From positions 1-42,407 of the forward strand of contig JAAWLV010000003.1 in the NCBI GenBank assembly GCA_022798105.1: DNA of 42,407 nucleotides, given 5' to 3'. The notes beneath the pieces were generated by a model. The model did not search any database. It was not told where the DNA came from and saw nothing but the letters and a program-made list of their open reading frames with translations. The DNA comes from Hungatella sp. (GTDB taxonomy: Bacteria > Bacillota > Clostridia > Lachnospirales > Lachnospiraceae). Both the position numbers and the translations under genes were made by a program. Below are positions 6,841-34,316 of the stretch, in pieces. How positions within the stretch are numbered: the first letter of the stretch is position 1; every line of letters starts with the position of its first letter.

Positions 6841-6890
6841 TTATTTAACAGAAAAAACACAGAGAAACTGTGGGAAAACGGGAGGTTTAT

Positions 6891-8345: not shown

Positions 8346-8425
8346 TAAATAATATGCGGTTGTTTATTGCCGGAAAGGCTAAGCAGGAAGCAAAATCAGA
8401 ATTCCAAGAAAAAAGGAGAGAATTT

Positions 8426-11286: not shown

Positions 11287-11302
11287 TGGCACGGAATTTG
11301 CA
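11287..11302 (+). promoter_or_regulatory. Sigma-54 (-24/-12) promoter for the 11.3-22.5 kb operon
   Basis: TGGCACGGAATTTGCA, a full match to TGGCACG-N4-TTGCA. Confidence 0.9.
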
Positions 11303-12666: not shown

Positions 12667-14748
12667 ATGGGCAGATGTAATATTCTGGCATCACCGATCA
12701 AGGTCGGAAATGTGGTCATGAAAAACCACCTGATGACAACTTCCATGTCGCCGGGTTATGGTTACGTCATAAACGAGGTTCCGACCCAGCGTTTTTATAA
12801 CTATCTGGAGGAGCGTGCCGCCGGGGGTACGGCGCTGATCTGCCAGACCGTGTCGCCGTTCCACAGGGAATTTGCCGACGAGTCGGCACTCCATGTACAT
12901 CCTCTGCCGGGGGCTTTTTGCGACGATCATCTTCCCGGGTTAAAGAAGATGGCCGAGGTGGTACATAAGCACGGAGGCCTTCTGGTGGGACAGCCCTGGA
13001 CTGTACACGCCTGGAAGCCGGACGACGAGGAGAAGGAAAAGACGTGGGGCCCGACTCCCCAGGTGATCTTAAAGGGCATGCCGCCCTTTACGCCCATGGA
13101 GAAGCGGCACATTGACATGTTCATTAACCACTATGTTTTGACGGCGCGGTATATCAAGAAAGCCGGGTGGGACGGCGTGGAGATCATGGCCGGCGTGGGA
13201 GGCGTCATGAACCGGTTCATGTCCCCAGCCACCAATAACCGGACCGACGAGTACGGCGGCTCCTTTGAGAACCGGATGCGCCTGGTGCTGGAGGTTATCA
13301 GGGCTGTCAGGGCCGAGGTGGGACCCGACTATTTAATCACCTGCCGCTGGTCCCCTGTGGAGTACGTAAGCTCCGAGCTGGGGGAGGGCAACGGCATTGA
13401 AAATGCTTTAAAAGTGGCTCCCCTTCTGGAGGAGGCGGGCATTGACATGCACAACCTGGCCATCGGCTGGCACGAGAGCAGCATACCGCTTACCATCAAG
13501 ACCGTTCCCGACGGCTACTGGTCCTGGGTGTCGGAGAAGATCAAGACCGTGGCCAAGAAACCTGTGGCCTGCGCCTACCGCAACACGGATCCCCTGGTGA
13601 TGGAGCAGATCCTTGCGGACAAGAAGGCGGACATTATCGCCGGCCTCCGCTACAACATCGCGGATCCGGAGTTCGGCAGAAAGGTGATGGAGGACAGGCT
13701 GGAGGATCTGAACAAATGTATCTGCTGCTGCCGGTGTCTGGACGACGTGGTCAGTTCCGGAAAGGTGCTGGAGTACTGCGGCGTCAACCCAAGGCTTGGC
13801 AAAGAGCTTGACAGGCCCAGGTTTGAGAAGACCAAAGACCGGAAGAGAGTTATGGTCATCGGAAGCGGCCCGGGAGGCCTGTCTGCGGCGGTGACTGCCT
13901 GTGAGCAGGGCCATCAGGTGACGGTTTACGAGAGGGGCCCCAGAGTGGGCGGATGCCTGGTGATGAGCTCCATCTTCAGCCCCACCTATGAGCGGCTTTT
14001 GCAGCACTACAAGCATGAGTTAAAGAAGCACCCGGAGATCAAGGTGAAGCTGAATACGAAGGTTACCAAGCGGCTGGTGATGAGGGAGAGGCCGGATGCG
14101 GTGATCGTGGCAATCGGCGGTGAGCCCATAGGCCTTGACGTGCCGGGCGCTGACGGCAAGAACGTGGTTCTCTCCCACGATTTCCTGGAGATGCTAAACG
14201 GAAAGGCGCCGAAAAAACCGGGGCTTATCAATAAAGTTATGTGGACCTGCGGTTCCATTTTCTTAAAGTTCTACTACACCCCTGCCTTTGCCAGGCTGGT
14301 GACGGGAATCAGCCCGTGGCCCATCGGCAAGAATGTGGCCATCATCGGCGGCGGCCTTCCGGGGTGCGAGCTGGGAACCCTGCTTTTGCAGTATAAGAGG
14401 AAGATGACCATTTTCGAGGAGCGCAAGAAAGTGGGCTGGGATGTGGGCGGCAGCGACCGGTTCCATGTTACGTCGGCCTTTAAAGAGTCTGAGGACTGTA
14501 CCCTTGAGCCTCTCACAAAGGTGACGGAGATTACCAATAAGGGCGTCAAGGCCGTGCGCCAGGACGGCACCGAGTTCTTTGTGCCGGCCAACACGGTGGC
14601 AGTGACCCTTGGCTTCCAGAAAAATATGGCACTGGCCAAATCCTTAAAGGGCGTGGTGGAAGAGGTGGCCGTTGTAGGCGACTGCATCAACCCGGCCAGG
14701 ATGGCGGACGCCACCAAGGCAGGATATCTGGCAGCGAGAAATCTGTAG
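12667..14748 (+). CDS. OYE-type FMN/4Fe-4S/FAD oxidoreductase (BaiCD/BaiH/FadH/TMADH family)
   Basis: N-terminal TIM-barrel (NRTDEYGGSFENRMRL), Cys cluster CICCCRC-x13-C, Rossmann VMVIGSGPGGLSAAV and VAIIGGGLPGCELG. Confidence 0.9.
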   Translation: MGRCNILASPIKVGNVVMKNHLMTTSMSPGYGYVINEVPTQRFYNYLEERAAGGTALICQTVSPFHREFADESALHVHPLPGAFCDDHLPGLKKMAEVVHKHGGLLVGQPWTVHAWKPDDEEKEKTWGPTPQVILKGMPPFTPMEKRHIDMFINHYVLTARYIKKAGWDGVEIMAGVGGVMNRFMSPATNNRTDEYGGSFENRMRLVLEVIRAVRAEVGPDYLITCRWSPVEYVSSELGEGNGIENALKVAPLLEEAGIDMHNLAIGWHESSIPLTIKTVPDGYWSWVSEKIKTVAKKPVACAYRNTDPLVMEQILADKKADIIAGLRYNIADPEFGRKVMEDRLEDLNKCICCCRCLDDVVSSGKVLEYCGVNPRLGKELDRPRFEKTKDRKRVMVIGSGPGGLSAAVTACEQGHQVTVYERGPRVGGCLVMSSIFSPTYERLLQHYKHELKKHPEIKVKLNTKVTKRLVMRERPDAVIVAIGGEPIGLDVPGADGKNVVLSHDFLEMLNGKAPKKPGLINKVMWTCGSIFLKFYYTPAFARLVTGISPWPIGKNVAIIGGGLPGCELGTLLLQYKRKMTIFEERKKVGWDVGGSDRFHVTSAFKESEDCTLEPLTKVTEITNKGVKAVRQDGTEFFVPANTVAVTLGFQKNMALAKSLKGVVEEVAVVGDCINPARMADATKAGYLAARNL

Positions 14749-14762: not shown

Positions 14763-15527
14763 ATGGAAGAGAAGGATGTAGTATATCTGGAGAAAAAGGA
14801 TGGGGGCATTGCGGTAATTTACCTGAATCAGCCCAAAAAGAAGAATGCCATCAGCGCCGTGATGATGGATAAGCTGTGCGGGTACTTTACAGAGCTTGAC
14901 AGGGACGACAAGACCCGGGTGATCCTTTTGAGGGGCGCAGGCGACAATTTCTCCACAGGCGGGGATTTAAGCCAGGGAGGCCCGGACATGACCATAGAGG
15001 ACAGCCGGAAGCTTTTGAGGCGGTACATCGCCGCCGTGAAAGCTATCCGCCAGATTGGCAAGCCGGTAATCGCCGTGGCCGACGGGTATGTGGTAGGCGG
15101 GGCGGTGAGCCTTGTGCTGGCCTGCGATCTGGTGGTGGCCTCGGATAAGACCGTGTTCATCCCCAATTTCTGTGCCATCGGCATTATACCGGAGATGGGC
15201 ATTATGGCCATGCTCCAGCAGGTTGTGGGCGCCCAGAGGGCAAAGGAGCTTCTGTTCTTCGGAAAGCGGTTCGGAGCGCAGGAAGGCTGTGACATGGGTA
15301 TTGTGAACCGGGTGGTGAAAAAGGAGGAGCTGGAGGAGAAGGCTCTTGAGTACGCGCAGGCGCTGTCTGCCATACCGGCCAACTCCTTAAGCATCACAAA
15401 GGGTATCATGAACGGGGCCGCGGATCCCATGGTGGGCGCTGTCATGGAGGCCGAGTCCACCGCATCCCCGTTCTGCACCCGGACTTTGGAGTACAAAGAG
15501 ATGGTGGCCAGATTTTCCAAAAAATAG
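14763..15527 (+). CDS. Crotonase-fold enoyl-CoA hydratase/isomerase
   Basis: GKPVIAVADGYVVGGAVSLVLACDLVVASDKTVFIPNFCAIGIIPEMG...AKELLFFGKRFGAQEGCDMGIVNRVV. Confidence 0.9.
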   Translation: MEEKDVVYLEKKDGGIAVIYLNQPKKKNAISAVMMDKLCGYFTELDRDDKTRVILLRGAGDNFSTGGDLSQGGPDMTIEDSRKLLRRYIAAVKAIRQIGKPVIAVADGYVVGGAVSLVLACDLVVASDKTVFIPNFCAIGIIPEMGIMAMLQQVVGAQRAKELLFFGKRFGAQEGCDMGIVNRVVKKEELEEKALEYAQALSAIPANSLSITKGIMNGAADPMVGAVMEAESTASPFCTRTLEYKEMVARFSKK

Positions 15528-15542: not shown

Positions 15543-17165
15543 ATGTTTTATCAGAATGTAAGCGAACTGCTGATGGTGAACGTGCGCCGATATCCCCGGA
15601 AAACGGCGGTGATCCACAGGGACGTCCGTCTGTCCTACGAGGAGTTTAACAGGCAGATCAACCGGATGGCCCACATGCTTTTGGATATGGGGGTAAAGGC
15701 AGGCCATAAGGTGGCCTACATGTTTCCCAACAGCATCATGCTGCTTGCGGCCTACTACGCAGTGCAGAAGATCGGCGGGGTGGCGGTGCCTTTAAACTTC
15801 CGGCTGGTTCCAAGGGAACTGCAGTACCTTCTTGAGGCCAGCGACGCGTCGGTGCTTCTGTTTGACGCCCAGTTTCTGGCTCATGTGGAGGAGATTTCCG
15901 GGGCTTTCGGGGACCGCGTATCCTTCCTGTGTTCGGAGGTTTCCGATGCCTGGGGGCCTTCCATCCGGGAGCGGATGGAGGGGCAGCCGGAGGGAGAGCC
16001 AGCGCTTTTTGCAGACGGGGAGGCATTGTCCAGGATCCAGTTTACGGGAGGGAGCACCGGGCTTCCGAAGGGAGCCATGCGGACCCACAGCGCCGACATA
16101 TGCGAGGCCATGGGGGTGATGAACTCCAACATGATGGGTTCGGATCCGGATCATGTGGTGCTAATCCAGTGCCCCCTAGAGCATCACGGAGGCCACAGCT
16201 GGTATCTCTCCGCCTTTGCCAGCGGCGCCACCTTAGTGATCTGCGATGTGTTTGATCCGGAGACCATCCTGGGCCTGATTGAGAAGGAGCGGGTTACTTA
16301 CCTGATGCTTCTTCCCCCAAGCACCTATTTGCGGCTTTTAGACTGCCCCGGGCTGGGAGAGTTTGACTTGTCCGGCGTCAGGCTGGTCCAGAGCGCCGCA
16401 GGGTGTACCACGCCGGAGATTGTGGAGAAGATTTACGCCGCATTTCCCAACTGCGTCATGAACTACGGATGGGGGCAGACCGAGAGCGGCCTGGGAACCA
16501 GCCTGGTGCTGACAAGGCAGATGGCAAAGGAGAACCTTTCCAGGATCAAGAGCGTAGGGCGGCCTATGCCCTTTCTGGAGGCCATCGTGGCCGATGAGGA
16601 CGGAAAAGAGCTGCCGCCGGGCCGGATAGGGGAGTGTCTGGTAAAAAGCCCGGCGGTGATGAAAGGGTACTATAGACAGCCGGAGCTTACAAAAAAGGCG
16701 TTCGGGGACGACGGCTGGCTGCGGACCGGGGATCTGATGTGGAAGGACGAGGACGGGTATCTGTACCTTATGTCAAGAAAGAAGGACATGATTAAGTCCG
16801 GCGGGGAAAATGTCTTTGCCCAGGAGGTGGAGGGCGTTATCAAGCGCCACCCGGCAGTTTTGGAGTGTGTGGTTTTCGGCGTGCCGGAGCGTGCCATGGG
16901 GGAGGCGGTGATGGCTGTGGTCAGCCTTCGCCCGGGGCATACGCTGACCCTTAAGGAGGTGCAGGATCACTGCAGGCAGTATATTTCCAGCTACAAAAAA
17001 CCCCGGTACCTGGATTTTATTGACGAGTTTGACATGGACGACGCGGGGAAGATCAGGAAGAGCCGGGTGGCAGAGCGGTACCGGCTGAAGCTTAGAAATG
17101 AAAAACGCAGGGCAAAGGGCCTTCTGCCTGTAGGCGGAGGTTCCCACTGTATGGAAGAAGAATAA
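15543..17165 (+). CDS. AMP-dependent acyl-CoA ligase (CaiC/BaiB-like)
   Basis: FTGGSTGLPKGAMRTH (AMP-binding), NYGWGQTESG, DGWLRTGDL, SRKKDMIKSGGENVFAQEVE. Confidence 0.92.
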   Translation: MFYQNVSELLMVNVRRYPRKTAVIHRDVRLSYEEFNRQINRMAHMLLDMGVKAGHKVAYMFPNSIMLLAAYYAVQKIGGVAVPLNFRLVPRELQYLLEASDASVLLFDAQFLAHVEEISGAFGDRVSFLCSEVSDAWGPSIRERMEGQPEGEPALFADGEALSRIQFTGGSTGLPKGAMRTHSADICEAMGVMNSNMMGSDPDHVVLIQCPLEHHGGHSWYLSAFASGATLVICDVFDPETILGLIEKERVTYLMLLPPSTYLRLLDCPGLGEFDLSGVRLVQSAAGCTTPEIVEKIYAAFPNCVMNYGWGQTESGLGTSLVLTRQMAKENLSRIKSVGRPMPFLEAIVADEDGKELPPGRIGECLVKSPAVMKGYYRQPELTKKAFGDDGWLRTGDLMWKDEDGYLYLMSRKKDMIKSGGENVFAQEVEGVIKRHPAVLECVVFGVPERAMGEAVMAVVSLRPGHTLTLKEVQDHCRQYISSYKKPRYLDFIDEFDMDDAGKIRKSRVAERYRLKLRNEKRRAKGLLPVGGGSHCMEEE

Positions 17166-17185
17166 AGTCAAAAAGGAGAATGATT

Positions 17186-18340
17186 ATGGACTTTCGGTTA
17201 ACAGAGGAGCAGGAGCTGTTGTTGGAATCCCTGGATGAGGTCATTGAGAGGGACTGTACGGAGGAGTACATGAAGCAGTGCAACGAGGAGGGGCGCTATC
17301 CTCAGGAGTTTGTGGATGCTTTGATGGAGAGCGGGTTCGGACTTCTGGGCGTGCCGGAGGAGTACGGCGGAACACCGGTAGATATTACCACTATGATGCT
17401 GGTGGCCGAGGAGATCACCAAGCACGGCGGCCCTCATTCCGTGTTCGGTCAGGCGCTGTCTATCGCCGATATGCTGGAGTTTGGCAGTGAGGAGCAGATA
17501 AGCCAGTGTATGGAGCAGATCCAGGCCGGGAAGCCGGGATTTGTTTTGGGCTTTACGGAGCCTCAGGCCGGGTCGGACAGCAGCGCCATCGCAACCACCT
17601 ACACCAGAAAGAACGGGAAAGTGTACATAAACGGCCACAAGACCTTTATGAGCAATGCCAAGAGAGCCAAATATATGCTGTGCCTTGCCAAGAACGCCGA
17701 GGAGGAAGACGGCGCGGCCAACAAAAAGAGCGCCTTCTCCATGTGGTGGATGCCCATGGACGCGCCGGGGGTGAAGATCGAGCCCTTAAAGAAGATCGGC
17801 TGGCATTTCATGGACACCTGTGAGGTGTACATGGAGGATGTGGAGCTGGAGGAGAAGGATCTGGTAGGCGTGGAGGGCAACGGCTTTATGCAGGCCATGC
17901 TGAACTTCGAGGTGGAGCGGCTTTTGATCGGCGCCGAGCTTCTGGGCTATGCGGAGTGCGCCTTTGAGGATGCGGCCAGATACGCCAACCAGAGAGTGAC
18001 CTTCGGAAAACCTCTGGCGGACAGGCAGCTGATCCAGGAGAAGATCACGCTGATGAAGATGAAAATTGAGAATATGCGGAACATGGTTTACCGCACCGCA
18101 TGGAAGATCGAGAACAAGGAGTCCGTGCAGGTGGATTCGGCTCTGACCAAACTGTACTGCGGCCGGTCCGCATGCGAGATCATCGACGACGCGCTGCAGA
18201 TCATGGGCGGCATCGGATACACGACGGACTGCCGGATCTCCAGGCTGTGGCTGGATTCCAGGGTTCAGAGGATCGGCGGCGGAACCGACGAGATCATGAT
18301 TCACATTGCAGGGCGCGCGCTGCTTAAGCAGTACCGATAA
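17186..18340 (+). CDS. Acyl-CoA dehydrogenase, CaiA-like
   Basis: FTEPQAGSDSSAIATTYTRKNGKVYINGHK; CAFEDAARYANQRVTFGKPLADRQLIQEK; GRALLKQYR C-terminus closely resembles remembered E. coli CaiA. Confidence 0.93.
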   Translation: MDFRLTEEQELLLESLDEVIERDCTEEYMKQCNEEGRYPQEFVDALMESGFGLLGVPEEYGGTPVDITTMMLVAEEITKHGGPHSVFGQALSIADMLEFGSEEQISQCMEQIQAGKPGFVLGFTEPQAGSDSSAIATTYTRKNGKVYINGHKTFMSNAKRAKYMLCLAKNAEEEDGAANKKSAFSMWWMPMDAPGVKIEPLKKIGWHFMDTCEVYMEDVELEEKDLVGVEGNGFMQAMLNFEVERLLIGAELLGYAECAFEDAARYANQRVTFGKPLADRQLIQEKITLMKMKIENMRNMVYRTAWKIENKESVQVDSALTKLYCGRSACEIIDDALQIMGGIGYTTDCRISRLWLDSRVQRIGGGTDEIMIHIAGRALLKQYR

Positions 18341-19240: not shown

Positions 19241-20359
19241 ATGGATGCTGATTTTGATGTGATCATCGTTGGAGGCGGCATTGCAGGTTCTGTGTGCGCC
19301 CTGCAGCTGGCAAAGGCAGGGATGGGTGTTTTGGTTATTGAGCGGGGGACTTCCTGCGGCTCCAAGAACATGACAGGCGGGCGCATCTACACTCACACCC
19401 TGGCGAAAGTGTTCCCGGACTACGTCCAGGAGGCGCCTCTGGAGAGACGGATCGTGAAGGATATCTTCACCTACGCGGGAAAGACCGTGGAGTACGCGTC
19501 CCAGGATCTTGGCAGCCAGGGGGAGGAGTCCTACTCCGTGCTGCGGGGAGGCTTTGACCAGTGGGCGGCAGACCAGGCGGAGAACGAGGGTGTCATGTAC
19601 ATCACCGGGATCCGGGTGGACGATCTGCTGGTTCAGGACGGCAAAGTGTGCGGCGTTGTGGCCGGGGACGAGGAGATGACCTCGGAGCTTGTGATCCTGG
19701 CAGACGGCGTAAACTCCCTTCTGGCCCAGAAGCTGGGGATGAAGGAGGAGTTAAAGCCTGACGAGGTGGAAGTGGGAGCCAAGGAAGTGATCCAGCTGGA
19801 TGCCGGGCTTATTGAGGAGCGGTTCGGCGTGGCGGCCGGAGAAGGCGTTGCCTGGATGTTTGAGGGCGTGTCCACCCTGGGCCACAAGGGCAACGGGTTT
19901 TTGTACACCAACAAGGACAGCATCTCCCTGGGAATCCTGACCACGGTGGGGGATATTGACTGTTCCCAGGAGACGGTGGCAGGCCTGGTAGACAAGCTTC
20001 ATGAGCTTCCGGAGGTGAAGCCTCTTTTGGAGGGCGGAAAGCTGATCGAGTATTCGGCCCACCTTCTGGGAAAAGGCGGGGAGAAGACCAGACCGAAACT
20101 TTACGGCGACGGCGTACTGGTTATCGGCGACGCCGCCTCCATGGTGGTGAACCGGGGATATGTGGTAAAGGGTATGGATCTGGCTGTGGAGTCAGCCATC
20201 CTGGCCGCCGAGACGGCCGTGAAGGCCAACGAGGCCGGCGACTACTCTGCTGCCTGTCTGGCTTCCTACGAGGAGGCGGTGAAAAACAGCCCTGTGCTTT
20301 CAGGCGCGGAGGATAAAAATAAAAATCTGGAAGAGGTAGCCGAGGTATTTTCAGAGTAG
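19241..20359 (+). CDS. FixC-type flavoprotein, shorter paralog
   Basis: VIIVGGGIAGSVCALQLAKAG, SCGSKNMTGGRIYTHTLAKVFPDYVQEAPLERR; ends about 60 residues earlier than copy 1. Confidence 0.9.
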   Translation: MDADFDVIIVGGGIAGSVCALQLAKAGMGVLVIERGTSCGSKNMTGGRIYTHTLAKVFPDYVQEAPLERRIVKDIFTYAGKTVEYASQDLGSQGEESYSVLRGGFDQWAADQAENEGVMYITGIRVDDLLVQDGKVCGVVAGDEEMTSELVILADGVNSLLAQKLGMKEELKPDEVEVGAKEVIQLDAGLIEERFGVAAGEGVAWMFEGVSTLGHKGNGFLYTNKDSISLGILTTVGDIDCSQETVAGLVDKLHELPEVKPLLEGGKLIEYSAHLLGKGGEKTRPKLYGDGVLVIGDAASMVVNRGYVVKGMDLAVESAILAAETAVKANEAGDYSAACLASYEEAVKNSPVLSGAEDKNKNLEEVAEVFSE

Positions 20360-20380
20360 GCGGAAAGGAAGGAAAAGGAC

Positions 20381-20659
20381 ATGACGATTCAGGATAAGCT
20401 TGGGGTTGACAAATTTAACACGGACGAGCTGCACAGCCATATTCAGGTGGATAAAACTTACGGGGATAAGGAGGAGGTTCAGAGGGTGATCCGCGTCTGC
20501 CCGGCAGGCCTCTACTCTCTGGACGACGACGGAAACCTGATGTTCGACCACCTTGGATGTTTGGAGTGCGGAACCTGCCGCGTACTCAGCGGGGGAAAGG
20601 TGGTAAAGGAATGGAACTACCCGGCAGGGGAAAAAGGGATCGCGTTCCGCCAGGGATAA
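20381..20659 (+). CDS. fixX: FixX ferredoxin-like protein
   Basis: KLGVDKFNTDELHSHIQVD...RVCPAGLYSLDDDGNLMFDHLGCLECGTCRVLSGG...WNYPAGEKGIAFRQG. Confidence 0.95.
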   Translation: MTIQDKLGVDKFNTDELHSHIQVDKTYGDKEEVQRVIRVCPAGLYSLDDDGNLMFDHLGCLECGTCRVLSGGKVVKEWNYPAGEKGIAFRQG

Positions 20660-20685: not shown

Positions 20686-21474
20686 ATGAATATTATCGTA
20701 TGCATTAAGCAGGTGCCGGATACTGCTGAGATCAAGATCGACCCGGTAACCAACACGCTGATTCGGGCGGGAGTCCCGAGTATTGTAAATCCCTACGACA
20801 AAAACGCCGTGGAGGCTGCTCTTCAGCTGAAAGAAGCCTACGGCGGAAAGGTGACGGTTCTGTCCATGGGGCCGCCGGCTGCGGAGGCTGCCCTTCGGGA
20901 GTGCCTGGAGATGGGAGCAGACGAGGCAGTCCTTATGTCCGGCCGGGAGTTCGGCGGATCCGACACCTATGCCACCAGCTACATTTTGTCACAGGGCATC
21001 CGCTACATCGGGAACTACGATATGATCATCTGCGGCAAGCAGGCCATTGACGGGGACACGGGACAGACAGGCGCCAGCATGAGCGAGCACTTAAACATCC
21101 CCCAGCTTACCTTTGCCGTAAAGATTGACGTGGACGGGGAGTACGCGCTGGTGGATCGGGAGGTTGACGAGGGCATCATGAGCCTTAAGGCCAAGCTTCC
21201 GGTGCTGTGCACCGTAGGCAAGGACATCAATGAGCCCAGAACCGCCACCATGAAAGGCAAGATGCGTGCCAAGAAGATGACGGTGAAGGTCATAAACTCC
21301 GCGGATATCGGCAACATGGACACCACAAAGATGGGCCTTAAGGGCTCCCCCACCCGGGTGAAGAAGACCTTTACACCTTCCGTAAAGAAAGCCGGCATGA
21401 AGGTGGAAGGAAAGAGCGCGGCCGAGGCTGTGGAGGCGCTTCTTGGCGATATGAAGGCCAAGGCTTTAATATAA
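20686..21474 (+). CDS. etfB: Electron transfer flavoprotein beta subunit, Bcd/Etf type
   Basis: Start ATG 20686. MNIIVCIKQVPDTAEIKIDPVTNTLIRAGVPSIVNPYDKNAVEAALQLKE; GKQAIDGDTGQTG. Confidence 0.94.
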   Translation: MNIIVCIKQVPDTAEIKIDPVTNTLIRAGVPSIVNPYDKNAVEAALQLKEAYGGKVTVLSMGPPAAEAALRECLEMGADEAVLMSGREFGGSDTYATSYILSQGIRYIGNYDMIICGKQAIDGDTGQTGASMSEHLNIPQLTFAVKIDVDGEYALVDREVDEGIMSLKAKLPVLCTVGKDINEPRTATMKGKMRAKKMTVKVINSADIGNMDTTKMGLKGSPTRVKKTFTPSVKKAGMKVEGKSAAEAVEALLGDMKAKALI

Positions 21475-21496: not shown

Positions 21497-22513
21497 ATGG
21501 GAAAATTTAAAGAATATAAAAATGTCTGGTCTTTCATCGAGACCTTTGACGATGAGCCGAAGAACGTTGGCCTGGAGCTTTTGGGCCAGGCTAAGAAGCT
21601 GGCAGGGAAGCTGGGAGAAAAGGTAGGCGCCGTGGTTATCGGCGCGGACTGCGCCAAGGCTGCAAAGGCCGCTGCGGAGCACGGCGCGGACTTTGTGTAC
21701 GTGGTGGAGAACCCGGGCTACAAGAATTTCAGTGCGGAGACCCACGCTTATATCCTGACCGCCCTTATTGAGAAACACAAACCGTCCGCGATCCTGATCG
21801 GCGCCACCAACAACGGCCGTGATCTGGGCTCCAGGGTGGCGGTGCGGATCCACACGGGCCTGACCGCAGACTGTACGGAGCTTGACGTGGATGAGGAGTC
21901 GGGCAATGTGGCCTACACCCGTCCGGCATTCGGCGGCAACCTGATGGCCACCATCCTGTGCGCCGAGACAAGGCCGCAGATGGGAACCATCCGTCCGGGA
22001 GCCTTTAAGAAGGAGGATCCGGAGCCGGGCCGTAAGGCAAAGGTAGTGCGGGAGGACATCCAGGTGCCCGCAGAACTTCTCCTGACAGAGCTTTTAAAAT
22101 TCACCCCCTTTGAGTCTGTGGGCGGAGTGAAGATTGAGGACGCGGAGATCATCGTCTCCGGCGGCCGGGGACTGGGAAAAGCGGAGAACTTTAAGCTTAT
22201 CGAGGACCTGGCGGCCGCCATAGGAGGGGCTGTAGGCGCCTCCAGGGCAGCGGTGGATGCAGGGTGGATCCCCCATCAGCAGCAGGTAGGACAGACGGGA
22301 AAGACCGTAATGCCAAAGATCTATGTGGCTGTGGGAATCTCCGGCGCTATCCAGCACGTGGCGGGTATGAGCTCCTCGGAGTACGTCATCGCCATCAACA
22401 AGGATCCGGAGGCCCCCATCTTCAATGTAGCTGACGTGGGCATTGTGGGAGATTTGTTTGAGATCGTGCCGGCGCTGACCGAGAAGATTAAGGCGCTTAA
22501 GAGCGGACAGTAA
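21497..22513 (+). CDS. etfA: Electron transfer flavoprotein alpha subunit, Bcd/Etf type
   Basis: [83 protein letters not shown]. Confidence 0.95.
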
Positions 22514-22769: not shown

Positions 22770-22814
22770 AGATAAAAAAGCGACATTGACAAAATCTTGA
22801 CAAAGGAGAGCCCA

Positions 22815-24218
22815 GTGAAATTATCACAGCAGATTCACTCGAAAGCACAGCAGAATACCCGGCAGACTACGAAGCAGAAGGTGACCACGGCTATGATCCA
22901 GGGGGTGAAGATTCTGGCCCTTCCGGTCCAGGAGATGGAGCATTATCTGGAGGAGGCGGTTTATGCCAACCCTCTTTTGGAGGTGGACTATCAGAGGGAA
23001 GCCGTACATGCCATGGAGGAGGAGGAACTGCCTGAGGATTCCTATGACAGCAATTCGGAGTTCAGCTACGACAAATGGCTTCACAGGAAGAAAGATCTGG
23101 GCATTCTGGATCCGGAAGGGCTGTGGAATTTAAAAGGCACGCCCTTTGAGCTGGACTGTCTGGAGGGGGTTTTAAAGCTTCAGCTGGCCTCTCTCAAGCT
23201 TCCGGAGGCCGAGCACCGGATCGGACTGGACATCCTGGGGAATATTGACGGGAGAGGATATTTTGTCGGGAATCTTGCCAGTATCTGCTATGCCATGGAG
23301 GCGCCCCTGGAGATGGGGGAGAAGATCCTTTCCCTGATTCAGACCTTTCTTCCAAAGGGAATCGGGGCCAGGAACCTGGCGGAGTGTTTAAGCATTCAGG
23401 TGGATAAAGATTTTCCTCATGAAAAGATTGCGGGAAAGATGATCAGAGAGTCTCTGGGTGATCTGGCCGAGAGGCGTTTTGCAAAGCTTGCCCGGCAGTA
23501 CGGGGTTAAGAGAAACGCGGTGGAAGAGATTTATGAGAATCTGGCCGCATTAAACCCCAAGCCGGCCAACGGCTACGGCACCCGTGACGCGGTGGGGTAT
23601 ATTATCCCCGATATTACCGTGTGCAGGGAGAAAGGCGGTTTTGGCGTGGTCATAAACGGGGAGGCGGAAAATATGCTCCGGATCAATGAGGAGTATCTGT
23701 CTATGCTGGACGACGACGGGCTTAACGCGGAGGCGGCCGCCTATATCCGGGCAAAGTACCAGGAGGCCAGGCTTCTTATTAACAGTATTCAGATCCGCAG
23801 CCAGAGCCTGTATCAGTTTGCCTGGGCGCTTTTGGAGAAACAGAACCTGTTTTTCAAGATGGGGCCGGAGTATTTAAAGCCTCTGACCATGCAGGAGATG
23901 GCCGACTCCATGGGGGTGCACGTGTCCACGGTCAGCCGCCTGGTTCAGGACAAGTACGCGGACACGCCCTACGGATGCTTTCCCCTGAAATATTTTTTCA
24001 ACGTGGGGATCGTGTGCGGGGAGGAGGATGTGGTTTCCTCCTCCATGATAAAGAGAAGGATCAGCCGGATGATTAGGGAGGAGGATGTGCATAAGCCTTT
24101 AAGCGATGCGCAGATTTGCCAGATACTGAATGAGGAAGGGTATCCCATATCAAGAAGGACCGTAGCAAAGTACCGTCAGATGCAGAACATAGACAGCCAG
24201 GCAAAAAGGAGAAGATAA
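22815..24218 (+). CDS. rpoN: RNA polymerase sigma-54 factor
   Basis: GTG start with aaaggagag RBS. N-term QKVTTAMIQGVKILALPVQEMEHYLEEAVYANPLLE; core-binding and HTH regions; RpoN box SRRTVAKYRQ. Confidence 0.93.
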   Translation: MKLSQQIHSKAQQNTRQTTKQKVTTAMIQGVKILALPVQEMEHYLEEAVYANPLLEVDYQREAVHAMEEEELPEDSYDSNSEFSYDKWLHRKKDLGILDPEGLWNLKGTPFELDCLEGVLKLQLASLKLPEAEHRIGLDILGNIDGRGYFVGNLASICYAMEAPLEMGEKILSLIQTFLPKGIGARNLAECLSIQVDKDFPHEKIAGKMIRESLGDLAERRFAKLARQYGVKRNAVEEIYENLAALNPKPANGYGTRDAVGYIIPDITVCREKGGFGVVINGEAENMLRINEEYLSMLDDDGLNAEAAAYIRAKYQEARLLINSIQIRSQSLYQFAWALLEKQNLFFKMGPEYLKPLTMQEMADSMGVHVSTVSRLVQDKYADTPYGCFPLKYFFNVGIVCGEEDVVSSSMIKRRISRMIREEDVHKPLSDAQICQILNEEGYPISRRTVAKYRQMQNIDSQAKRRR

Positions 24219-26275
24219 TGGAAAGACAGAAGGGGAAATTTGACAGAGCCAAGGTATTGATTGCGTGGAAGAAATTTGTCAACAAAGGCATTATCGACGA
24301 GGGGAAGGTGCGCCCTGAGGTGGCCAGATCCTGGGTCAGGTGCGCCCAGTACGGCGTGGATCCCTGGTCCCATGATTTTCCGGCCTGCGACAACGAGGCT
24401 ATGAAGAGAAGCAGGGAGAAAAATTTCACGATCCTCAATTCGTCCCAATGTATTATGCGCTATATGATGACAGCCCTCAACAGCAATATCAGTCTTGCTG
24501 ATATGGAGGGCTTTGTCTATGACCTGATTTCCCCTTTCCCCGATTATCAGAGGACCTTCGGAACCTACGCCTCGGAAAACATCATGGGCACCGGCAATGT
24601 GGGCGTCTGCCTTTTTGAGAAAAAGCCGATCCGCATAGACGGGTTTGAACACTACCGGGTGGCGTCCCAGGGGTACTCGGGAGTCAGCGCCCCCATTTAC
24701 TTCCACGGGAAGATGACAGGGGTGCTCAACGTCAACAACCCGCTGCGAAGCCTTCCCTCGGAAGCCCTGGATATCTGTATTGAGGGAAGCCGCCTTATCT
24801 CCCTTATGCTGGAGAGCAAAAAGCAGGATCAGATACGTTTCCTGTCTGTGGCCTCCTTTTTTGACAGGCTGATCGATGTGACAGCCTATGCCGTTATTGT
24901 GGCGGATCAGGACGGGATGATCCTGAACGCCAACCGCCAGGGGAAGCTTCTGGTGCCGGGCTATGAGGAAAAGCCTTACGCCTCTCAGTCCATTGCCGGA
25001 TACCTGCAGAAAAAGAGCAGCTTATTTGCCATCCTGGAGGAGCAGAAGCAGGGACAGGAAAGCCAGAAGGTGGTATTTAAAGCCACAAAATCAACGCCGG
25101 TCCAGGAGAGGAAGCTTCTGTGGGTCAATGAGGTGATCCTTTTAAACGGCATGATCCAGAAAGTTTTGGTCTTTGACAGCGAGAATGCCTCCAATGCCCG
25201 GGAGAAGGAGAAACAGCCCAAACTTCCTCTGCGCAGAAAAGAGGGGGAGAAATTTTATATCGGCAGCAGCCAGGTCTGGAAAGAGGTGGACGAGACCGTG
25301 AAAAAGGTGGCCGGATACCGGTCCAACGTGCTGATTTTGGGGGAGACGGGAACGGGCAAGGAGGTGGTGGCCCAGACCATCCACCGCCTCAGCGGCAGGG
25401 AGGGAGCCTTCGTGCCGTTAAACTGCGGCGCTATCCCAAAGGATCTTTTAGCCAGCGAGCTGTTCGGCTATGAGGGCGGCGCGTTTACGGGGGCAAAAGC
25501 CACAGGGGCTGTGGGCAAATTCGAGTACGCCCACAAGGGGACCTTGTTTCTGGATGAGATCGGCGAGATGCCGGTGGATATGCAGGTATCCCTTTTGAGG
25601 GTTCTCCAGGAGCAGACCGTGACCCGCATCGGGGGCAACAAACAGCAGCGGTTTGACGTGCGGATCGTGGCGGCCACCAACCAGAACATCAGCCAGATGA
25701 TTGCGGATAAGCTGTTCCGCTCCGATCTGTTCTACCGGCTCAGCGTTATTGAGATCCATCTTCCCAGGCTGGCGGAGCGGGGGGACGACGTGATCCTTCT
25801 GGCGGAGCACTTTAATCAGGTGCTGAGCCAGACCCTTCAGGTGCGAAGGCAGGAGCTGTCCCGGGAGGTCGTCGAATTTCTGAAAGCCTACTCCTGGCCG
25901 GGAAACGTGCGGGAACTGAAAAATGTCATTGAAAAAGTGCTGATTGTGGCCAACGGAAGACAGATCCAGGTGAAAGATTTCCCCAGGCACATGAGGGACC
26001 AGGCAGAAAAAATAACGGACGGCGGCAAACGGAAGGAGGAGGGGCCCGGCAGGCCGGAGGACAGGCTTTCGGAAGATACGGAGGATGAGACTTTAAGCCC
26101 CAAGGAGAAGAAGGACAAAAAGCAGAGGGAGCAGGTGGCCCGCCTTATGGAAAAGCACATGGGCAACTTGTCCCGGGTGGCCGAGGACATGGGTATTTCC
26201 AGAAACACCCTGTACCGGAAGATGGAGCGGTGGGAAATCGAGATGAAAGTTACAATTCGTCCCAAAAAGAAGTAG
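24218..26275 (+). CDS. Sigma-54 interaction (enhancer-binding) transcriptional activator, GAF-PAS-AAA+-Fis HTH
   Basis: GETGTGKEVVAQTIH (Walker A), GAFTGA (sigma-54 contact), GTLFLDEIGEM (Walker B), C-terminal LSRVAEDMGISRNTLYRKMERW. TAATG overlap with rpoN. Confidence 0.95.
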   Translation: MERQKGKFDRAKVLIAWKKFVNKGIIDEGKVRPEVARSWVRCAQYGVDPWSHDFPACDNEAMKRSREKNFTILNSSQCIMRYMMTALNSNISLADMEGFVYDLISPFPDYQRTFGTYASENIMGTGNVGVCLFEKKPIRIDGFEHYRVASQGYSGVSAPIYFHGKMTGVLNVNNPLRSLPSEALDICIEGSRLISLMLESKKQDQIRFLSVASFFDRLIDVTAYAVIVADQDGMILNANRQGKLLVPGYEEKPYASQSIAGYLQKKSSLFAILEEQKQGQESQKVVFKATKSTPVQERKLLWVNEVILLNGMIQKVLVFDSENASNAREKEKQPKLPLRRKEGEKFYIGSSQVWKEVDETVKKVAGYRSNVLILGETGTGKEVVAQTIHRLSGREGAFVPLNCGAIPKDLLASELFGYEGGAFTGAKATGAVGKFEYAHKGTLFLDEIGEMPVDMQVSLLRVLQEQTVTRIGGNKQQRFDVRIVAATNQNISQMIADKLFRSDLFYRLSVIEIHLPRLAERGDDVILLAEHFNQVLSQTLQVRRQELSREVVEFLKAYSWPGNVRELKNVIEKVLIVANGRQIQVKDFPRHMRDQAEKITDGGKRKEEGPGRPEDRLSEDTEDETLSPKEKKDKKQREQVARLMEKHMGNLSRVAEDMGISRNTLYRKMERWEIEMKVTIRPKKK

Positions 26276-26288: not shown

Positions 26289-26304
26289 TGGCATGATTTT
26301 TGCA
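26289..26304 (+). promoter_or_regulatory. Sigma-54 (-24/-12) promoter for fixAB
   Basis: TGGCATGATTTTTGCA; about 30 nt leader to the ATG. Confidence 0.85.
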
Positions 26305-26343: not shown

Positions 26344-27111
26344 ATGAATGTAATCGCATGTTACAAGATTGTGCCCGATGAGCAGGACATTGTGGTCAAT
26401 GGAGACAAGACCCTTTCCCTGGACAAGGCGGCATTGAAGGTGGGCCAGTATGACTTAAACGCAGTGGAGGCAGGAGCGCAGCTTGCGGAGGCGTCAGGAG
26501 GAAAGCTGATGGTTCTGACCGCAGGAGGGGAGGAGGCGGAGAACTCCAAGATGAAGAAGAGCATCCTCTCCAGAGGCCCCCAGGAAAACTACGTGTACTC
26601 CAGCCCTGACATGGCAGGAGCGGACGCCTCCATGACAGCGAAGGTGCTGTGCGAGGCCGTAAAGAAGATAGAGGGCTGGGATCTGGTGCTGTGCGGGGAG
26701 GGATCGTCGGATCTGTATTCCCAGCAGGTGGGGATTCAGCTGGGCGAGCGCTTGGGCCTTCCCACGCTTAACGGGGTGAGCAAGATCACCGAGGCGGAAG
26801 GCGGAAAGCTTATTGTGGAGAGAAGCCTGGAGGATGAGGTGGAGATCATTGAGGTCAGCCTTCCGGCAGTCCTTTCCGTCACTTCGGACATCAATGTAAC
26901 GCGTGTTCCCACCATGAAGGAGATCCTTGCAGCAGGCAAGAAGCCCACAACCGTTTGGAAAGACGGCGAGACGGCGGTTCCGGCACCGTCCATGGAGACC
27001 CTGAGCATTTTGGCTCCGGAAGAGACGGAGCGCAGGTGTGTTGTGGTGGAAGGCGACGACGGGGACAAGATCGCGCAGTTCTGCCAGCTTATTAAAGCGG
27101 AATTACAGTAA
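26344..27111 (+). CDS. fixA: FixA / EtfB, carnitine-type
   Basis: MNVIACYKIVPDEQDIVVNGDKTLSLDKAALKVGQYDLNAVEA; CGEGSSDLYSQQVG; resembles remembered E. coli FixA. Confidence 0.92.
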   Translation: MNVIACYKIVPDEQDIVVNGDKTLSLDKAALKVGQYDLNAVEAGAQLAEASGGKLMVLTAGGEEAENSKMKKSILSRGPQENYVYSSPDMAGADASMTAKVLCEAVKKIEGWDLVLCGEGSSDLYSQQVGIQLGERLGLPTLNGVSKITEAEGGKLIVERSLEDEVEIIEVSLPAVLSVTSDINVTRVPTMKEILAAGKKPTTVWKDGETAVPAPSMETLSILAPEETERRCVVVEGDDGDKIAQFCQLIKAELQ

Positions 27112-27123
27112 GGGGGGAGAACC

Positions 27124-28047
27124 ATGAAGGTAAGAAAGATTGTAGTCTATTCAGAAGACAGAAAAGCAGTTTGCGAATTGGCCTCAGGGGCCGCAGGGAT
27201 GGCCGATGAGGTGACGGCGGTGGTTTTAGGCTCCAAGGAGGACGCCAGGGAGGCGGCAGAGTACTGCAGCCAGGTAGTTCTGGTGCCAAAGCAGGAGGGG
27301 ACGATGGCGGAAGCGTATGTGCCTGCCGTGGAGAAGATCATAAGGGAGGAGAACCCGGTTCTGGTGCTCATGGCGTCTACCCGCCGGGGAAAATGCGCTG
27401 CCGGCCGTCTGGCGGTCCGTCTGGACGCAGGCGTGGCCACCGAGGTAAACCGTGTGGAGCCGGTGTCGGATCATGAGGCTGTGTTAAAGAAGATGGTGTA
27501 CGGCGGTGCGGCGGTGGCTTCCTTAAAATCCGCGGGAAAACTTTCCATCGCCCTGGCAGGGGTGGGATCTTATGAGGCCGAAAAACTGCCTGAGCCCGGA
27601 ACCGTCAGGGAGGCAGAGGTTTCCTTTGAGGAGAGCGGGATGGTGTGCACAAAGGTTCAGCCGAAAGCGGAGGAGCGGGTGAACTTAAACGCGGCCAAGC
27701 GCATTGTGGGTGCGGGCCGCGGCGTGGGGGCCCAGGAAAAGCTTGGCCTTCTGGAAGATTTTGCAAAGAAGATCGGCGCGGAGATGGCATGTTCCCGTCC
27801 CATTGCGGAGGGTGAAAAGTGGATGCCCAAAAACCGCTACCTTGGAGTTTCCGGTGTGGTGGTAAAACCGGATGTGTATGTGGCCTGCGGAATCTCCGGA
27901 CAGGTTCAGCATATGGTGGGAGTCAACGAGGCCCGGGTGATCATAGCGGTCAATAAGGACAAAAACGCGCCGATTTTCAAGCACTGCGATTTCGGGATCG
28001 TGGGGGAGCTGAATAAAGTGGTTCCGGCTTTGACGGAGCTTTTGTAG
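27124..28047 (+). CDS. fixB: FixB / EtfA, carnitine-type
   Basis: ASTRRGKCAAGRLAVRL; AKRIVGAGRGVGAQEKLGLLEDFAKKIGAEMACSRPIAEGEKWMPKNRYLGVSGVVVKPDVYVACGISGQVQHMVG. Confidence 0.93.
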   Translation: MKVRKIVVYSEDRKAVCELASGAAGMADEVTAVVLGSKEDAREAAEYCSQVVLVPKQEGTMAEAYVPAVEKIIREENPVLVLMASTRRGKCAAGRLAVRLDAGVATEVNRVEPVSDHEAVLKKMVYGGAAVASLKSAGKLSIALAGVGSYEAEKLPEPGTVREAEVSFEESGMVCTKVQPKAEERVNLNAAKRIVGAGRGVGAQEKLGLLEDFAKKIGAEMACSRPIAEGEKWMPKNRYLGVSGVVVKPDVYVACGISGQVQHMVGVNEARVIIAVNKDKNAPIFKHCDFGIVGELNKVVPALTELL

Positions 28048-28055: not shown

Positions 28056-28104
28056 GCCCGGACGGCTGACGGGAATCAGCCCTCTGGCCGTCAGGGCTTT
28101 TTTG
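28056..28104 (+). terminator. Intrinsic terminator after fixB
   Basis: gcccggacggc...gccgtcagggc followed by tttttt. Confidence 0.75.
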
Positions 28105-28116: not shown

Positions 28117-29034
28117 ATGAAATATGAAAGCATGACTTTAAAATCAGCGGCAGGGCTGGCGGCGCCCCAGACCTGGGCGGCGACTCTCGGGCCGGTTCTG
28201 GCAGCGGGGGCATACAGCGTCAACCGGCAGGGAAATGCGGATGTTCTGTTATTTTATCTGACCCTCTGCGGAGCCCTGCTTATGCAGTCTTCGGTCAACA
28301 CCCTGAACGATTACTATGATTATAAAAAGGGGACGGACAACCGGGATAATTCTAAAGACCCGGCTGAGGCGGTTTTGGTCTACCAAAACTTAAGCCCCGG
28401 GGCAGTGCTTGGGCTGGCTGCAGGTTTTCTTGGACTGGCGGGGGTTATAGGGCTGTACATAACCCTGCGCTGCGGCCCGGTTCCTCTTGCCATAGGCTGT
28501 TTTGGGGGGCTGGTGATCCTTTTCTACTCGGGAGGGAAATTGCCCATCTCCTATCTTCCGGTGGGGGAACTGGTGTCGGGAATAATGATGGGAGGCCTTC
28601 TTCCCATGGCGGTTATAAACGTGCTGACAGGCGCCCTGGAACGGCCGGCTTTTTATCAGATGGCCCCCCTGATGATGGGAGTGGGCCTTATTATGTATAC
28701 CAACAACTTAAGCGACATTGAAAAAGACAGGCCCGCCGGCCGGATGACCTTATCTGTGTGTCTGGGGCGGAAACGGGCCGGGAGCCTTTACCGCTTTCTT
28801 CTGATCGTGTGGACTTTGTCCGTCGGCCACATGGCATTCTGGCATTTTCGCGGAGGCTTTTGCCTTTACCCTCTGTTTCTGGGGTTTGCCGGCGCAAAAC
28901 TTATAAGGCAGATGAGATTTTCCTTTGTCCGGGGGGAAGAGCGGAGAGAGGCGATGTCGGGGATTACATGGCTGAACCTGTGCACAGCCGTGTTTTACGC
29001 GGTTATGATGCTTGCGGACAGGGCGATTGGCTGA
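28117..29034 (+). CDS. UbiA/MenA-family prenyltransferase (1,4-dihydroxy-2-naphthoate prenyltransferase-like)
   Basis: NTLNDYYDYKKGTDN and NNLSDIEKDRPAGRMTL Asp-rich motifs; polytopic. The start may instead be 28102. Confidence 0.85.
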   Translation: MKYESMTLKSAAGLAAPQTWAATLGPVLAAGAYSVNRQGNADVLLFYLTLCGALLMQSSVNTLNDYYDYKKGTDNRDNSKDPAEAVLVYQNLSPGAVLGLAAGFLGLAGVIGLYITLRCGPVPLAIGCFGGLVILFYSGGKLPISYLPVGELVSGIMMGGLLPMAVINVLTGALERPAFYQMAPLMMGVGLIMYTNNLSDIEKDRPAGRMTLSVCLGRKRAGSLYRFLLIVWTLSVGHMAFWHFRGGFCLYPLFLGFAGAKLIRQMRFSFVRGEERREAMSGITWLNLCTAVFYAVMMLADRAIG

Positions 29035-29078
29035 GAAGACCTTTAAACAGTCCTAAAAAATTTCAGGAGCAAAATCTC

Positions 29079-29888
29079 ATGGAACCAGATATCTATCATA
29101 TATTTCAATCCATAGCTCCCCGCTACGACCGGGCAAACACTGTCATCAGCATGGGAATGCACCGGCGGTGGAAGGGGCGCATGGTCCGCACCCTTTCCCA
29201 AATGATACCAAAAGACAGCCGGATTCTGGACTTGTGCTGCGGGACCGGAGACATTGCCTGGATGTTTCTGAAGGGGGGAGACTCTTTTCAAGTCACAGCC
29301 GCCGATTTTTCTCCCAACATGCTTTCGGAAGCAGGAAGAAAGCTTTCGGGACTTCCGGGAGAAGCAAGGTACTGCCTGGTACAGGCCGACGCCATGGCGC
29401 TTCCCTGGAGGGAGGAAACCTTTGACGCGGCGGTCATCTCCTTCGGGCTGCGCAACACGCCGGATTGGAACCGGGTTTTAAGGGAGATGGTCCGCGTGAC
29501 AAAGACAGGAGGGATCGTCTGTGTGATGGATGCCCATTATCCGGAAAATATCTGGGTGCAGAGGGCATTTTCTTTGTATTTTACGTGGCTTATGCCTGTT
29601 TTGGGAGGGGGAAGGAAGCACAGGCGGGAGTATGGATGGCTGAACCGGTCGGCAAAAGCCTTTGCCGACGTGCCGCGGCTTATGGGTATGATGAAGGAGG
29701 CAGGGCTGATTCACAGAAGGTACAAACGATTTCTCTTTGGCAGCTGTGTATACCAGCTGGGAGAAAAAGCAAACAAGCGGAAAGGGACACAGGATGATGG
29801 AGGACCGGATGGCAGGGGAGCTGGAACTTGTAGAGCAGTATTTGAGGCAGTTCACGGAGGACTTGAGACAAAGAGAGCCGTTAAATGA
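29079..29888 (+). CDS. UbiE/MenG-type SAM-dependent methyltransferase
   Basis: Internal ATG 29079 with caggag RBS. IFQSIAPRYDRANTVISMGMHRRWK, ILDLCCGTGDIAW, SFGLRNTPDWNRVLREMVRVTKTGG. Confidence 0.88.
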   Translation: MEPDIYHIFQSIAPRYDRANTVISMGMHRRWKGRMVRTLSQMIPKDSRILDLCCGTGDIAWMFLKGGDSFQVTAADFSPNMLSEAGRKLSGLPGEARYCLVQADAMALPWREETFDAAVISFGLRNTPDWNRVLREMVRVTKTGGIVCVMDAHYPENIWVQRAFSLYFTWLMPVLGGGRKHRREYGWLNRSAKAFADVPRLMGMMKEAGLIHRRYKRFLFGSCVYQLGEKANKRKGTQDDGGPDGRGAGTCRAVFEAVHGGLETKRAVK

Positions 29889-30780
29889 GATCCTTAAGGA
29901 TGTGCTCGGGGCGCCGGGAAAGCGGCTGCGGCCCCGTATGGTGCTGGCTTTGGGGCTTTTTGGGCAGGATTTTGAGAAGAAAAAGGATCGCCTCTGCAGA
30001 ATCGGGGCGCTTATTGAGATGGTTCACGGCGCGTCCCTGATTCACGACGACATTATTGACGATTCGCCCCTGCGCAGGGGAAAGAGGACGGTTCAGTCCA
30101 AATACGGAAAGGACATGGCCGTTTATACCGGGGATTATATCCTGGGAAAGGTGCTGTACTATCTCATGGAGATGGGAGCCTCAGAGAGCGGCATGATCCT
30201 GGGAAGCTGTGTTCAGGATATGTGCGCCGGGGAATTAAACCAGCATTTCCACCGCTTTGACTGCCAGGTGTCCGAGGAGGAATACTTTGCAAACATTTAC
30301 GGAAAGACGGCGGCCCTCTTTGAGGCAGCCTGCCGGATTGGGGCGCTGGAGGGCGGATGCACAAAGACAGAGCAGGATGCGGCAGGAAAACTGGGGGAGG
30401 CTGTGGGCATGTTTTTCCAGCTTCGGGACGATCTTATGGATTTTCAGGCCTGTAAACAGTGGGACGGGAAACCTGCCTACCAGGATTTTTTCCAGGGCAT
30501 CTACACCCTCCCTGTGATCCATGCCCTGAACCATCCTGCAACGGGAAATAAAATGAGGCTTTTTATTGAGGAGACCAGGCAGGGGGAGATGAAAAGGGAC
30601 GTGGTGCGGGAGCGGCTCAACGGGCTGCTTTTCGAGGCGGGGGGAGTCCGCTATGCAGGCAGCTGTATGGAGAACTACAAGAAGAAGGCGTTTAACCTGT
30701 TAAAGCAGATGCCCGGAGGCAGGGGGAAAGAGGAGATTGAACGGCTTGTAAAGACCCTTGCCTCCAGGATAAGATACTGA
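29794..30780 (+). CDS. Polyprenyl diphosphate synthase (heptaprenyl/octaprenyl type)
   Basis: GKRLRPRMVLALG, LIHDDIIDDSPLRRGKRTVQSKYG, FQLRDDLMDF; start at MMEDRMAGELELVEQYL. Confidence 0.9.
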   Translation: MMEDRMAGELELVEQYLRQFTEDLRQREPLNEILKDVLGAPGKRLRPRMVLALGLFGQDFEKKKDRLCRIGALIEMVHGASLIHDDIIDDSPLRRGKRTVQSKYGKDMAVYTGDYILGKVLYYLMEMGASESGMILGSCVQDMCAGELNQHFHRFDCQVSEEEYFANIYGKTAALFEAACRIGALEGGCTKTEQDAAGKLGEAVGMFFQLRDDLMDFQACKQWDGKPAYQDFFQGIYTLPVIHALNHPATGNKMRLFIEETRQGEMKRDVVRERLNGLLFEAGGVRYAGSCMENYKKKAFNLLKQMPGGRGKEEIERLVKTLASRIRY

Positions 30781-33692: not shown

Positions 33693-33739
33693 AGGAACTG
33701 TATTGAACTTTGCAAAGTAAACTATATAGAGCAAGGGCG

Positions 33740-34170
33740 GAGGTTGTCGCGGAGCCAGCGAGGGGAGGCAGGCTGTGTGCCGACCGGGTTCAGATATGCC
33801 GGACATTCCGATGAGCCCTTAAAGCGGAAACCAGTCGGGGTGAGGCCCTCCTGTTTTCCTGGTCTCATCTCCATGGCATATATTCACCCGTCTGGCACAC
33901 GGCCTGCCTCCCCTCGCTGGCAAAAGCAGAATTCGCCGGCTGAACCCTGCTAACTTAAGGTGTATCCGATAGGGGACGCGGTTTCAACGCTGTGGCGGAA
34001 AGATAGCAGCTTTATCGGCTTAATAGGTTGTACCTTGTATTTATGGGAACAAATCCTGTTTATATCGTTTGTGTGTCAGGCAATGCATGCACGGATTGCC
34101 ATATGTTTTAAGAACCCGAATACAAATTCCTGAAAGTGCGGTCTTTTTATGGCTTTCGTTAGTTTATCAG
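33740..34170 (+). repeat. Copy B of the palindromic repeat family
   Basis: 28-nt arms 33754..33781 / 33894..33921 (27/28 plus one G-U type pair); core shared with A, C, D, E; 3' ~230-bp tail resembles copy C. Confidence 0.85.
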
Positions 34171-34275
34171 GCAAGCTGTACAACTGCCGATTCATGTATA
34201 CGTACATAAATCCGAATATGCCGCTTTGCGGAAGAACCAGAACGTTGATATTATATTCAGGTCTGCGGGGAGCTG

Positions 34276-34316
34276 TTTTCTAACCAGTCAGGAATACCAT
34301 CAGCCAGCTGAATTTA
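34276..34316. repeat. Second copy of the 1..42 segment
   Basis: ttttctaaccagtcaggaatacc(a/g)tc(c)agccagctgaattta occurs at both places. Confidence 0.8.

Follow-up and report, generated by a model that had tools for sequence, protein, structure and literature searches.

A partial menaquinone pathway that probably supplies a putatively sigma-54-controlled Fix/ETF island with quinone made from salvaged DHNA in a Hungatella genome

Why would a Hungatella genome carry the late steps of menaquinone synthesis beside a set of fix genes, and where would the quinone ring come from? The window analysed here, a stretch of 42,407 nucleotides, is an entire contig of a 2.63-Mb MAG that is 73% complete and lies in 210 contigs; its family, Lachnospiraceae, also contains Parasporobacterium and a Roseburia MAG. 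An earlier note had read MenA-, MenG- and polyprenyl-diphosphate synthase (PPS)-like genes at 28117-30780, with fix genes as neighbours and no menF/D/H/C/E/B in the window, and all of this holds: the three ORFs are intact and co-directional in the order menA-menG-PPS; fixAB (26344-28047) lies directly upstream, with 70 nt between the end of fixB2 and the start of menA, and fixC/fixX (19241-20659) lies 7.5 kb upstream; and none of the ring genes occurs there, the enoyl-CoA hydratase of the island (14763) being rejected as MenB (115 vs 343 bits) and its acyl-CoA ligase (15543) as MenE, with a score far under the cut-off. We posit that the trio is probably a menaquinone module fed by salvaged 1,4-dihydroxy-2-naphthoate (DHNA) and dedicated to the Fix/ETF electron-transfer island (Table 1). 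Partial menaquinone pathways that salvage DHNA are already known; the proposed dedicated wiring to a Fix/ETF island is new. Beyond the earlier note, the trio appears to share a sigma-54-driven unit with fixA2B2, an ETF of the non-bifurcating cai/ydi type, and is rare in its family and genus.

Table 1. Island genes, the menA-menG-PPS trio and promoter sites, in window coordinates
Feature	Position	Strand	Remarks
CaiB-like CoA-transferase (CaiB1)	6870..8132	+	sigma-54 site at 6825
MFS transporter	8354..9688	+	sigma-54 site at 8330; likely true start ~8426
CaiB-like CoA-transferase 2	9837..11054	-	
sigma-54 site	11287..11302	+	upstream of fixC1 and genes through fixB1
FixC1, ETF-quinone oxidoreductase	11346..12635	+	T. 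maritima EtfC, 6e-84
Old-yellow-enzyme/BaiCD-like flavin Fe-S reductase	12667..14748	+	
Enoyl-CoA hydratase, not MenB	14763..15527	+	115 vs 343 bits
Acyl-CoA ligase, CaiC/FadK-like	15543..17165	+	
Acyl-CoA dehydrogenase/reductase	17180..18340	+	YdiO model, 652 bits, above cut-off of 537
FixC2, YdiS-like	19241..20359	+	C-terminus ~57 aa shorter than FixC1 and YdiS, though within fixCXAB run
FixX, ferredoxin-like	20381..20659	+	T. maritima EtfX, 4.5e-14
FixA1/EtfB, bifurcating type	20686..21474	+	GLKGSPTRV
FixB1/EtfA, bifurcating type	21497..22513	+	RPAFGG
RpoN (sigma-54)	22797..24218	+	TIGR02395, 361 > 277 bits
Sigma-54 enhancer-binding activator	24218..26275	+	AAA+ and Fis-type HTH domains
sigma-54 -24/-12 site TGGCATGATTTTTGCA	26289..26304	+	upstream of fixA2-fixB2-menA-menG-PPS
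FixA2	26344..27111	+	YdiQ 47%, E. coli FixA 44%; without GxxxSPTxV bifurcation motif
FixB2	27124..28047	+	E. coli FixB/YdiR 38%; KMVYGG where bifurcating type has RPxFGG
MenA, DHNA polyprenyltransferase, UbiA/UBIAD1 family	28117..29034	+	ATG 28117; alternative start TTG 28102
MenG/UbiE, demethylmenaquinone methyltransferase	29079..29888	+	ATG; TIGR01934, DLCCGTGD motif
Long-chain polyprenyl-diphosphate synthase (PPS), HepT-like	29794..30780	+	ATG; Pfam, motifs, best PDB match

The UbiA-family protein of the trio, the only one encoded in the host MAG, matches Pfam UbiA at 4e-29 and keeps both Asp-rich motifs (NDYYD and DIEKD) intact; the curated models that it fits best all describe DHNA polyprenyltransferases, led in NCBIfam by a match at 5.5e-44, but it falls under the cut-off of each of them and under every equivalog cut-off. 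Its sole relative of solved structure in the PDB is UBIAD1 (1e-16), the vertebrate menaquinone-4 synthase. The function is anchored by the ten MenD-positive genomes described below, because they use a UbiA enzyme of the same clade, nine of them having one UbiA gene and one having two; the tree and these single-UbiA genomes support the identification as MenA. MenG scores 205 bits with TIGR01934, whose cut-off is 158 bits, its SAM motif reads DLCCGTGD, and the 3' end of its gene overlaps the PPS gene by ~95 nt. PPS (Pfam, 1e-59) retains both Asp-rich motifs and has Ala, a small residue as in long-chain synthases, at the chain-length position (-5 from the first motif), and its best PDB match is component 2 of heptaprenyl-diphosphate synthase.

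The search of the whole genome for men and mqn genes that the earlier note proposed found neither MenD nor MqnA/D (PF02621) in the 73%-complete host MAG, and none of its proteins reaches the MenB cut-off; what the MAG presents is the set expected for DHNA salvage, with MenA, PPS and MenG, no Men ring genes and no futalosine pathway. Because this MAG is incomplete, relatives were brought in. A MenA scan across 84,980 species genomes yielded 116 loci, of which 80 were kept, and in 38 of 50 genomes with window-type MenA none of MenD, MenB or MqnA/D scored over its cut-off; seven of these 38 are isolates (Parasporobacterium paucivorans, [Eubacterium] yurii, Frisingicoccus caecimuris, Megasphaera sp. 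NM10, Slackia equolifaciens, S. faecicanis and a Gordonibacter), and the near relatives L018 (G200) and L019 (G201) likewise have none of these over cut-off. MenD exceeded its cut-off in 10 of the 50, all Eggerthellaceae/Coriobacteriia, and MqnA/D, among the carriers tested, only in two Thermoguttaceae. DHNA and MK-4 induce growth of Gordonibacter pamelaeae (PMC5738691), and its response to DHNA fits the MenA+ MenD- state of the Gordonibacter in our survey. Within the family this MenA was present in 4 of 200 Lachnospiraceae genomes, and its distribution in the genus is sporadic, since just 3 of 26 genomes have a strong menA match. The two Thermoguttaceae MAGs (L020 and L024), which are planctomycetes, possess futalosine MqnA/D, yet their MenA nests inside the Eggerthellaceae clade, which suggests horizontal transfer; on this nesting, and on the absence of MqnA/D from the host, MqnP, the futalosine prenyltransferase, was rejected as the identity of the window enzyme. 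A Methanomassiliicoccus MAG (L067) has a menA-menG pair on a 159-kb contig and no MenD or MqnA/D in the MAG, and either transfer or a binning error could account for it.

What ties the trio to the fix genes is linkage. We compared 40 non-actinobacterial MenA loci, the window excluded, with 40 actinobacterial ones, counting neighbours within 7 kb of menA: fixC on the same strand was found at 16 of the non-actinobacterial loci, menG at 26, PPS at 21, lutB at 14 and Hdr/Asr genes at 7, against 0/40 in every case for the actinobacterial set. Because fixC is rare (3/200 family genomes, 7/393 class genomes) and the adjacency frequent, chance does not explain it, shared ancestry within layouts being allowed for. 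These counts carry the argument, not class-level co-occurrence, which is too weak (menA in 5 of the 7 genomes with fixC, against 75 of all 393). The layout of the window (fixCX, rpoN, activator, fixAB, menA, menG, PPS) recurs at ~50% identity in an Oscillospiraceae MAG (L019) and, as far as the contig extends, at 75-90% identity in a Hungatella MAG (L018). Most fixC-linked loci instead have a lut-type operon (lutC, a lutB/A fusion, PPS, menA, menG, fixC, fixX), found in Lachnospiraceae, [Eubacterium] yurii, Frisingicoccus and Megasphaera, and a third layout, read from domain calls, combines a pyrogallol-transhydroxylase-like molybdopterin enzyme, PPS, HdrCBA, MvhD, AsrA/B and menA, in some cases with menG, and occurs in Parasporobacterium, a Roseburia MAG and Family XIII MAGs; fixC and menA form divergent pairs in L025 and L035. 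The refuting pattern named in the earlier note, complete men genes elsewhere and no co-occurrence of the trio with fixCX, was sought and did not appear; distant taxa that lack ring synthesis again have the trio together with fixCX. The main counter-example is a 99%-complete relative (G013) whose fixABC/ETF/acyl-CoA island has no menA, so FixC need not accompany quinone genes; the UbiA gene of that genome was rejected as an alternative MenA, its neighbours being glycan and transport genes. A limited literature search found no report of menA linkage to fixCX, lut or hdr in Clostridia. In three genomes far apart from one another (L015, L059, L066), an ArsA/GET3-type ATPase pair (PF02374 with ArsA_HSP20) borders the lut-type menaquinone operon. 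In a Lachnospiraceae MAG (L082:2651-10933), fixCX-PPS-menA stands by a di-haem cytochrome c peroxidase/MauG-type protein and a ResB-like cytochrome c biogenesis gene, and contig C50 (L151, L152) of a genome of the same genus as the host (G636) has menA-menG with no adjoining PPS, together with bifurcating-type EtfAB, acyl-CoA dehydrogenases and an exported FMN/FAD reductase.

FixC, FixX, FixA and FixB are all present in the island, and FixC1 and FixX match the menaquinone-binding EtfC and the ferredoxin-like EtfX of T. maritima EtfABCX; EtfC has been found to bind menaquinone (PMC10734219). Judged by the motifs of bifurcating (Group 2) ETFs, RPxFGG (R140 of T. maritima EtfB) and GxxxSPTxV, FixA1B1 has both; the two are missing from FixA2B2, the pair next to menA, as they are from E. 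coli FixAB, YdiQR and the counterparts in L018 and L019; the ETF adjoining menA thus appears to be of the non-bifurcating cai/ydi type and the other ETF of the bifurcating type. Because of these ETF types and the match to the YdiO model, the island resembles a combination of the cai-fix and ydi genes of E. coli to which a bifurcating ETF has been added. A cai-fix carnitine operon proper was rejected: CaiB1 (388) and CaiB2 (364) both miss the CaiB cut-off of 413, and the acyl-CoA dehydrogenase scores 418 with the CaiA model, whose cut-off is 540, and fits the YdiO model instead.

Trio and island also seem to share a switch. In the window, a strict sigma-54 pattern (TGGYAYN4TTTGCA) has four matches where 0.04 would be expected, and none of 100 shuffles reached four. 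Each of these sites closely precedes an island gene: CaiB1 (6825), the MFS transporter (8330), fixC1 (11287) and fixA2 (26289). The last, TGGCATGATTTTTGCA, is identical ahead of fixA in L018, and the genes for RpoN and the enhancer-binding activator lie between the sites. The simplest reading is that quinone synthesis would be switched on jointly with the acyl-CoA genes. A single transcript from fixA2 to PPS is not certain, because a hairpin with a T-run (28082-28096) stands between fixB2 and menA; it could lower read-through, is absent in L018, and belongs to a region where hairpins number no more than chance.

In the mechanism that we propose, DHNA from neighbouring microbes would enter the cell, PPS would make the tail, MenA would prenylate and decarboxylate DHNA, and MenG would methylate the product, as their homologs do. 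The resulting menaquinone would connect FixC/FixX with the non-bifurcating FixA2B2 and the YdiO-like acyl-CoA dehydrogenase, the bifurcating-type ETF probably coupling the system to NADH and ferredoxin, and, to judge from the promoter sites, the sigma-54 activator of the island would induce quinone synthesis along with the acyl-CoA genes. We lean towards menaquinol driving enoyl-CoA reduction, because MK (-74 mV) lies under the enoyl-CoA/acyl-CoA couple (~-10 mV); the reverse direction may apply instead. Menaquinol-driven enoyl-CoA reduction has been proposed for E. coli cai-fix. This arrangement suggests that the chemistry of the island, electron exchange in either direction with fatty-acid-like CoA compounds, would run only when neighbours supply the quinone ring. 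The predictions that could be checked support the earlier proposal of a quinone pool serving the island and possibly made from scavenged DHNA; DHNA uptake and quinone content, like the enzyme activities, the direction of electron flow and the regulation, are inferred.

The ring could have another origin. That the MAG merely misses contigs with a complete men pathway is suggested by its 73% completeness and 210 contigs, and is made highly improbable by L018 (G200), L019 (G201) and the seven isolates, which share the lack of MenD, MenB and MqnA/D over cut-off. A third, unrecognised route to the ring, or prenylation of some other aromatic acceptor, would explain why MenA stands without any known ring pathway in 38 genomes; we find this very improbable, given that the same clade provides the UbiA enzyme of MenD-positive Eggerthellaceae, that UBIAD1 is the sole PDB relative, that MenG accompanies MenA at 26 of 40 non-actinobacterial loci, that no unknown gene is constantly linked to menA and that Gordonibacter responds to DHNA (PMC5738691). 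The starting material might instead be whole or short-chain quinones (MK-4, menadione) that the enzyme would re-tail; UBIAD1 does this, and it has been reported for S. agalactiae, which can start from DHNA or MK-4 (PMC6030563). The similarity of the window enzyme to UBIAD1 is in keeping with this, but re-tailing itself does not need MenG, and DHNA is the soluble, known cross-fed form, which leaves DHNA replacement by such quinones quite improbable.

The quinone could also have another use, serving mainly general anaerobic respiration, with its position beside the Fix island reflecting shared acquisition. Outside the window, the host genome (G000) encodes at least four exported reductases of the lipoprotein type with FMN_bind + FAD_binding_2 domains (L221:1555-3564, L230:13044-15254, L168:6489-8369, L159:7639-9675), which are candidate anaerobic terminal reductases and could be quinol-linked acceptors; the menA-menG pair of G636 shares its contig with such a reductase, and menA of L082 lies near the di-haem cytochrome. 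Any quinone link of these reductases would be putative, however, and the trio recurs with fixCX in varied arrangements and shares the sigma-54 control of the island. Oxygen respiration via cytochrome bd was rejected, CydA being found neither in the host nor in any Lachnospiraceae carrier tested, as was a classical fumarate reductase, PF02910 being absent from the host genome; in the 1.47 of 2.63 Mb (56%) covered by tblastn, no match to Rnf, Dms, Ndh2, LutBC or Hdr genes appeared, and a 36-base E. coli probe had no match. We therefore consider general respiration as the main use unlikely, and keep to menaquinone dedicated to the Fix/ETF island as the probable reading.

Among known systems, partial DHNA-fed pathways have been described in S. 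agalactiae, lactobacilli and Prevotella (PMC6030563, PMC4746308, PMC5738691), and Ravcheev and Thiele (2016; PMC4746308) listed Lactobacillus and other gut genomes with partial menaquinone pathways. Like those of S. agalactiae and Lactobacillus, the window pathway keeps the late steps and lacks ring synthesis; S. agalactiae, which converts exogenous DHNA into quinone (PMC6030563), respires oxygen with the DMK-10 that it makes (NDH-2, cytochrome bd), whereas the window pathway includes MenG, a search of the host for CydA found none, and the genes lie in a Fix/ETF island. The dmkA-dmkB genes of FLEET/EET systems in Listeria and L. plantarum, the latter using exogenous DHNA, likewise place MenA-like and polyprenyl synthase genes beside one dedicated electron-transfer system (PMC9888254), but without MenG and with Ndh2, EetA/B and PplA as partners in extracellular electron transfer; none of these partners is among the window genes, and Ndh2 is also missing from the 56% of the genome read. 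The island is like E. coli caiTABCDE-fixABCX and ydiO-ydiQRST-fadK (FixC 50-52%, YdiO 54%, YdiQ 47%, CaiB 37-41%, FixX 50%), and differs in its extra bifurcating ETF, RpoN and activator and in the MFS transporter that replaces CaiT; E. coli synthesizes its own menaquinone, and its cai-fix and ydi operons are without men genes. It is also like T. maritima EtfABCX and A. vinelandii FixABCX, with FixC and FixX homologous to EtfC and EtfX and bifurcation motifs in FixA1B1, unlike these in that the menA-adjacent FixA2B2 is without those motifs.

It is possible, though less likely than not, that Clostridia repeatedly use menaquinone as a dedicated shuttle between two peripheral enzymes rather than for classical respiration, the ring always coming from other microbes; the partners would be FixCX/ETF with an acyl-CoA dehydrogenase, LutABC, or Hdr/Asr. 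If so, a whole branch of clostridial acyl-CoA or lactate metabolism would be switched on by neighbours. Quinones are known gut growth factors, and these operons name specific candidate partners for a borrowed quinone: FixCX/ETF/acyl-CoA dehydrogenase, LutABC and Hdr/Asr. Since such partners are named in cultured Frisingicoccus caecimuris, [Eubacterium] yurii, a Megasphaera and Parasporobacterium paucivorans, DHNA dependence is directly testable, and a role for quinones is suggested in Lachnospiraceae, where this MenA is rare.

Two further features mark the contig itself. At its left end (376-1159) a two-cluster ferredoxin is followed by a NapH/NosR-looking 4Fe-4S membrane protein with no Pfam match, and imperfect intergenic repeats of ~100-240 nt, dispersed in direct and inverted orientation, lie at both contig ends (75-216, 42311-42407) and near 34-35 kb (33716-35101).
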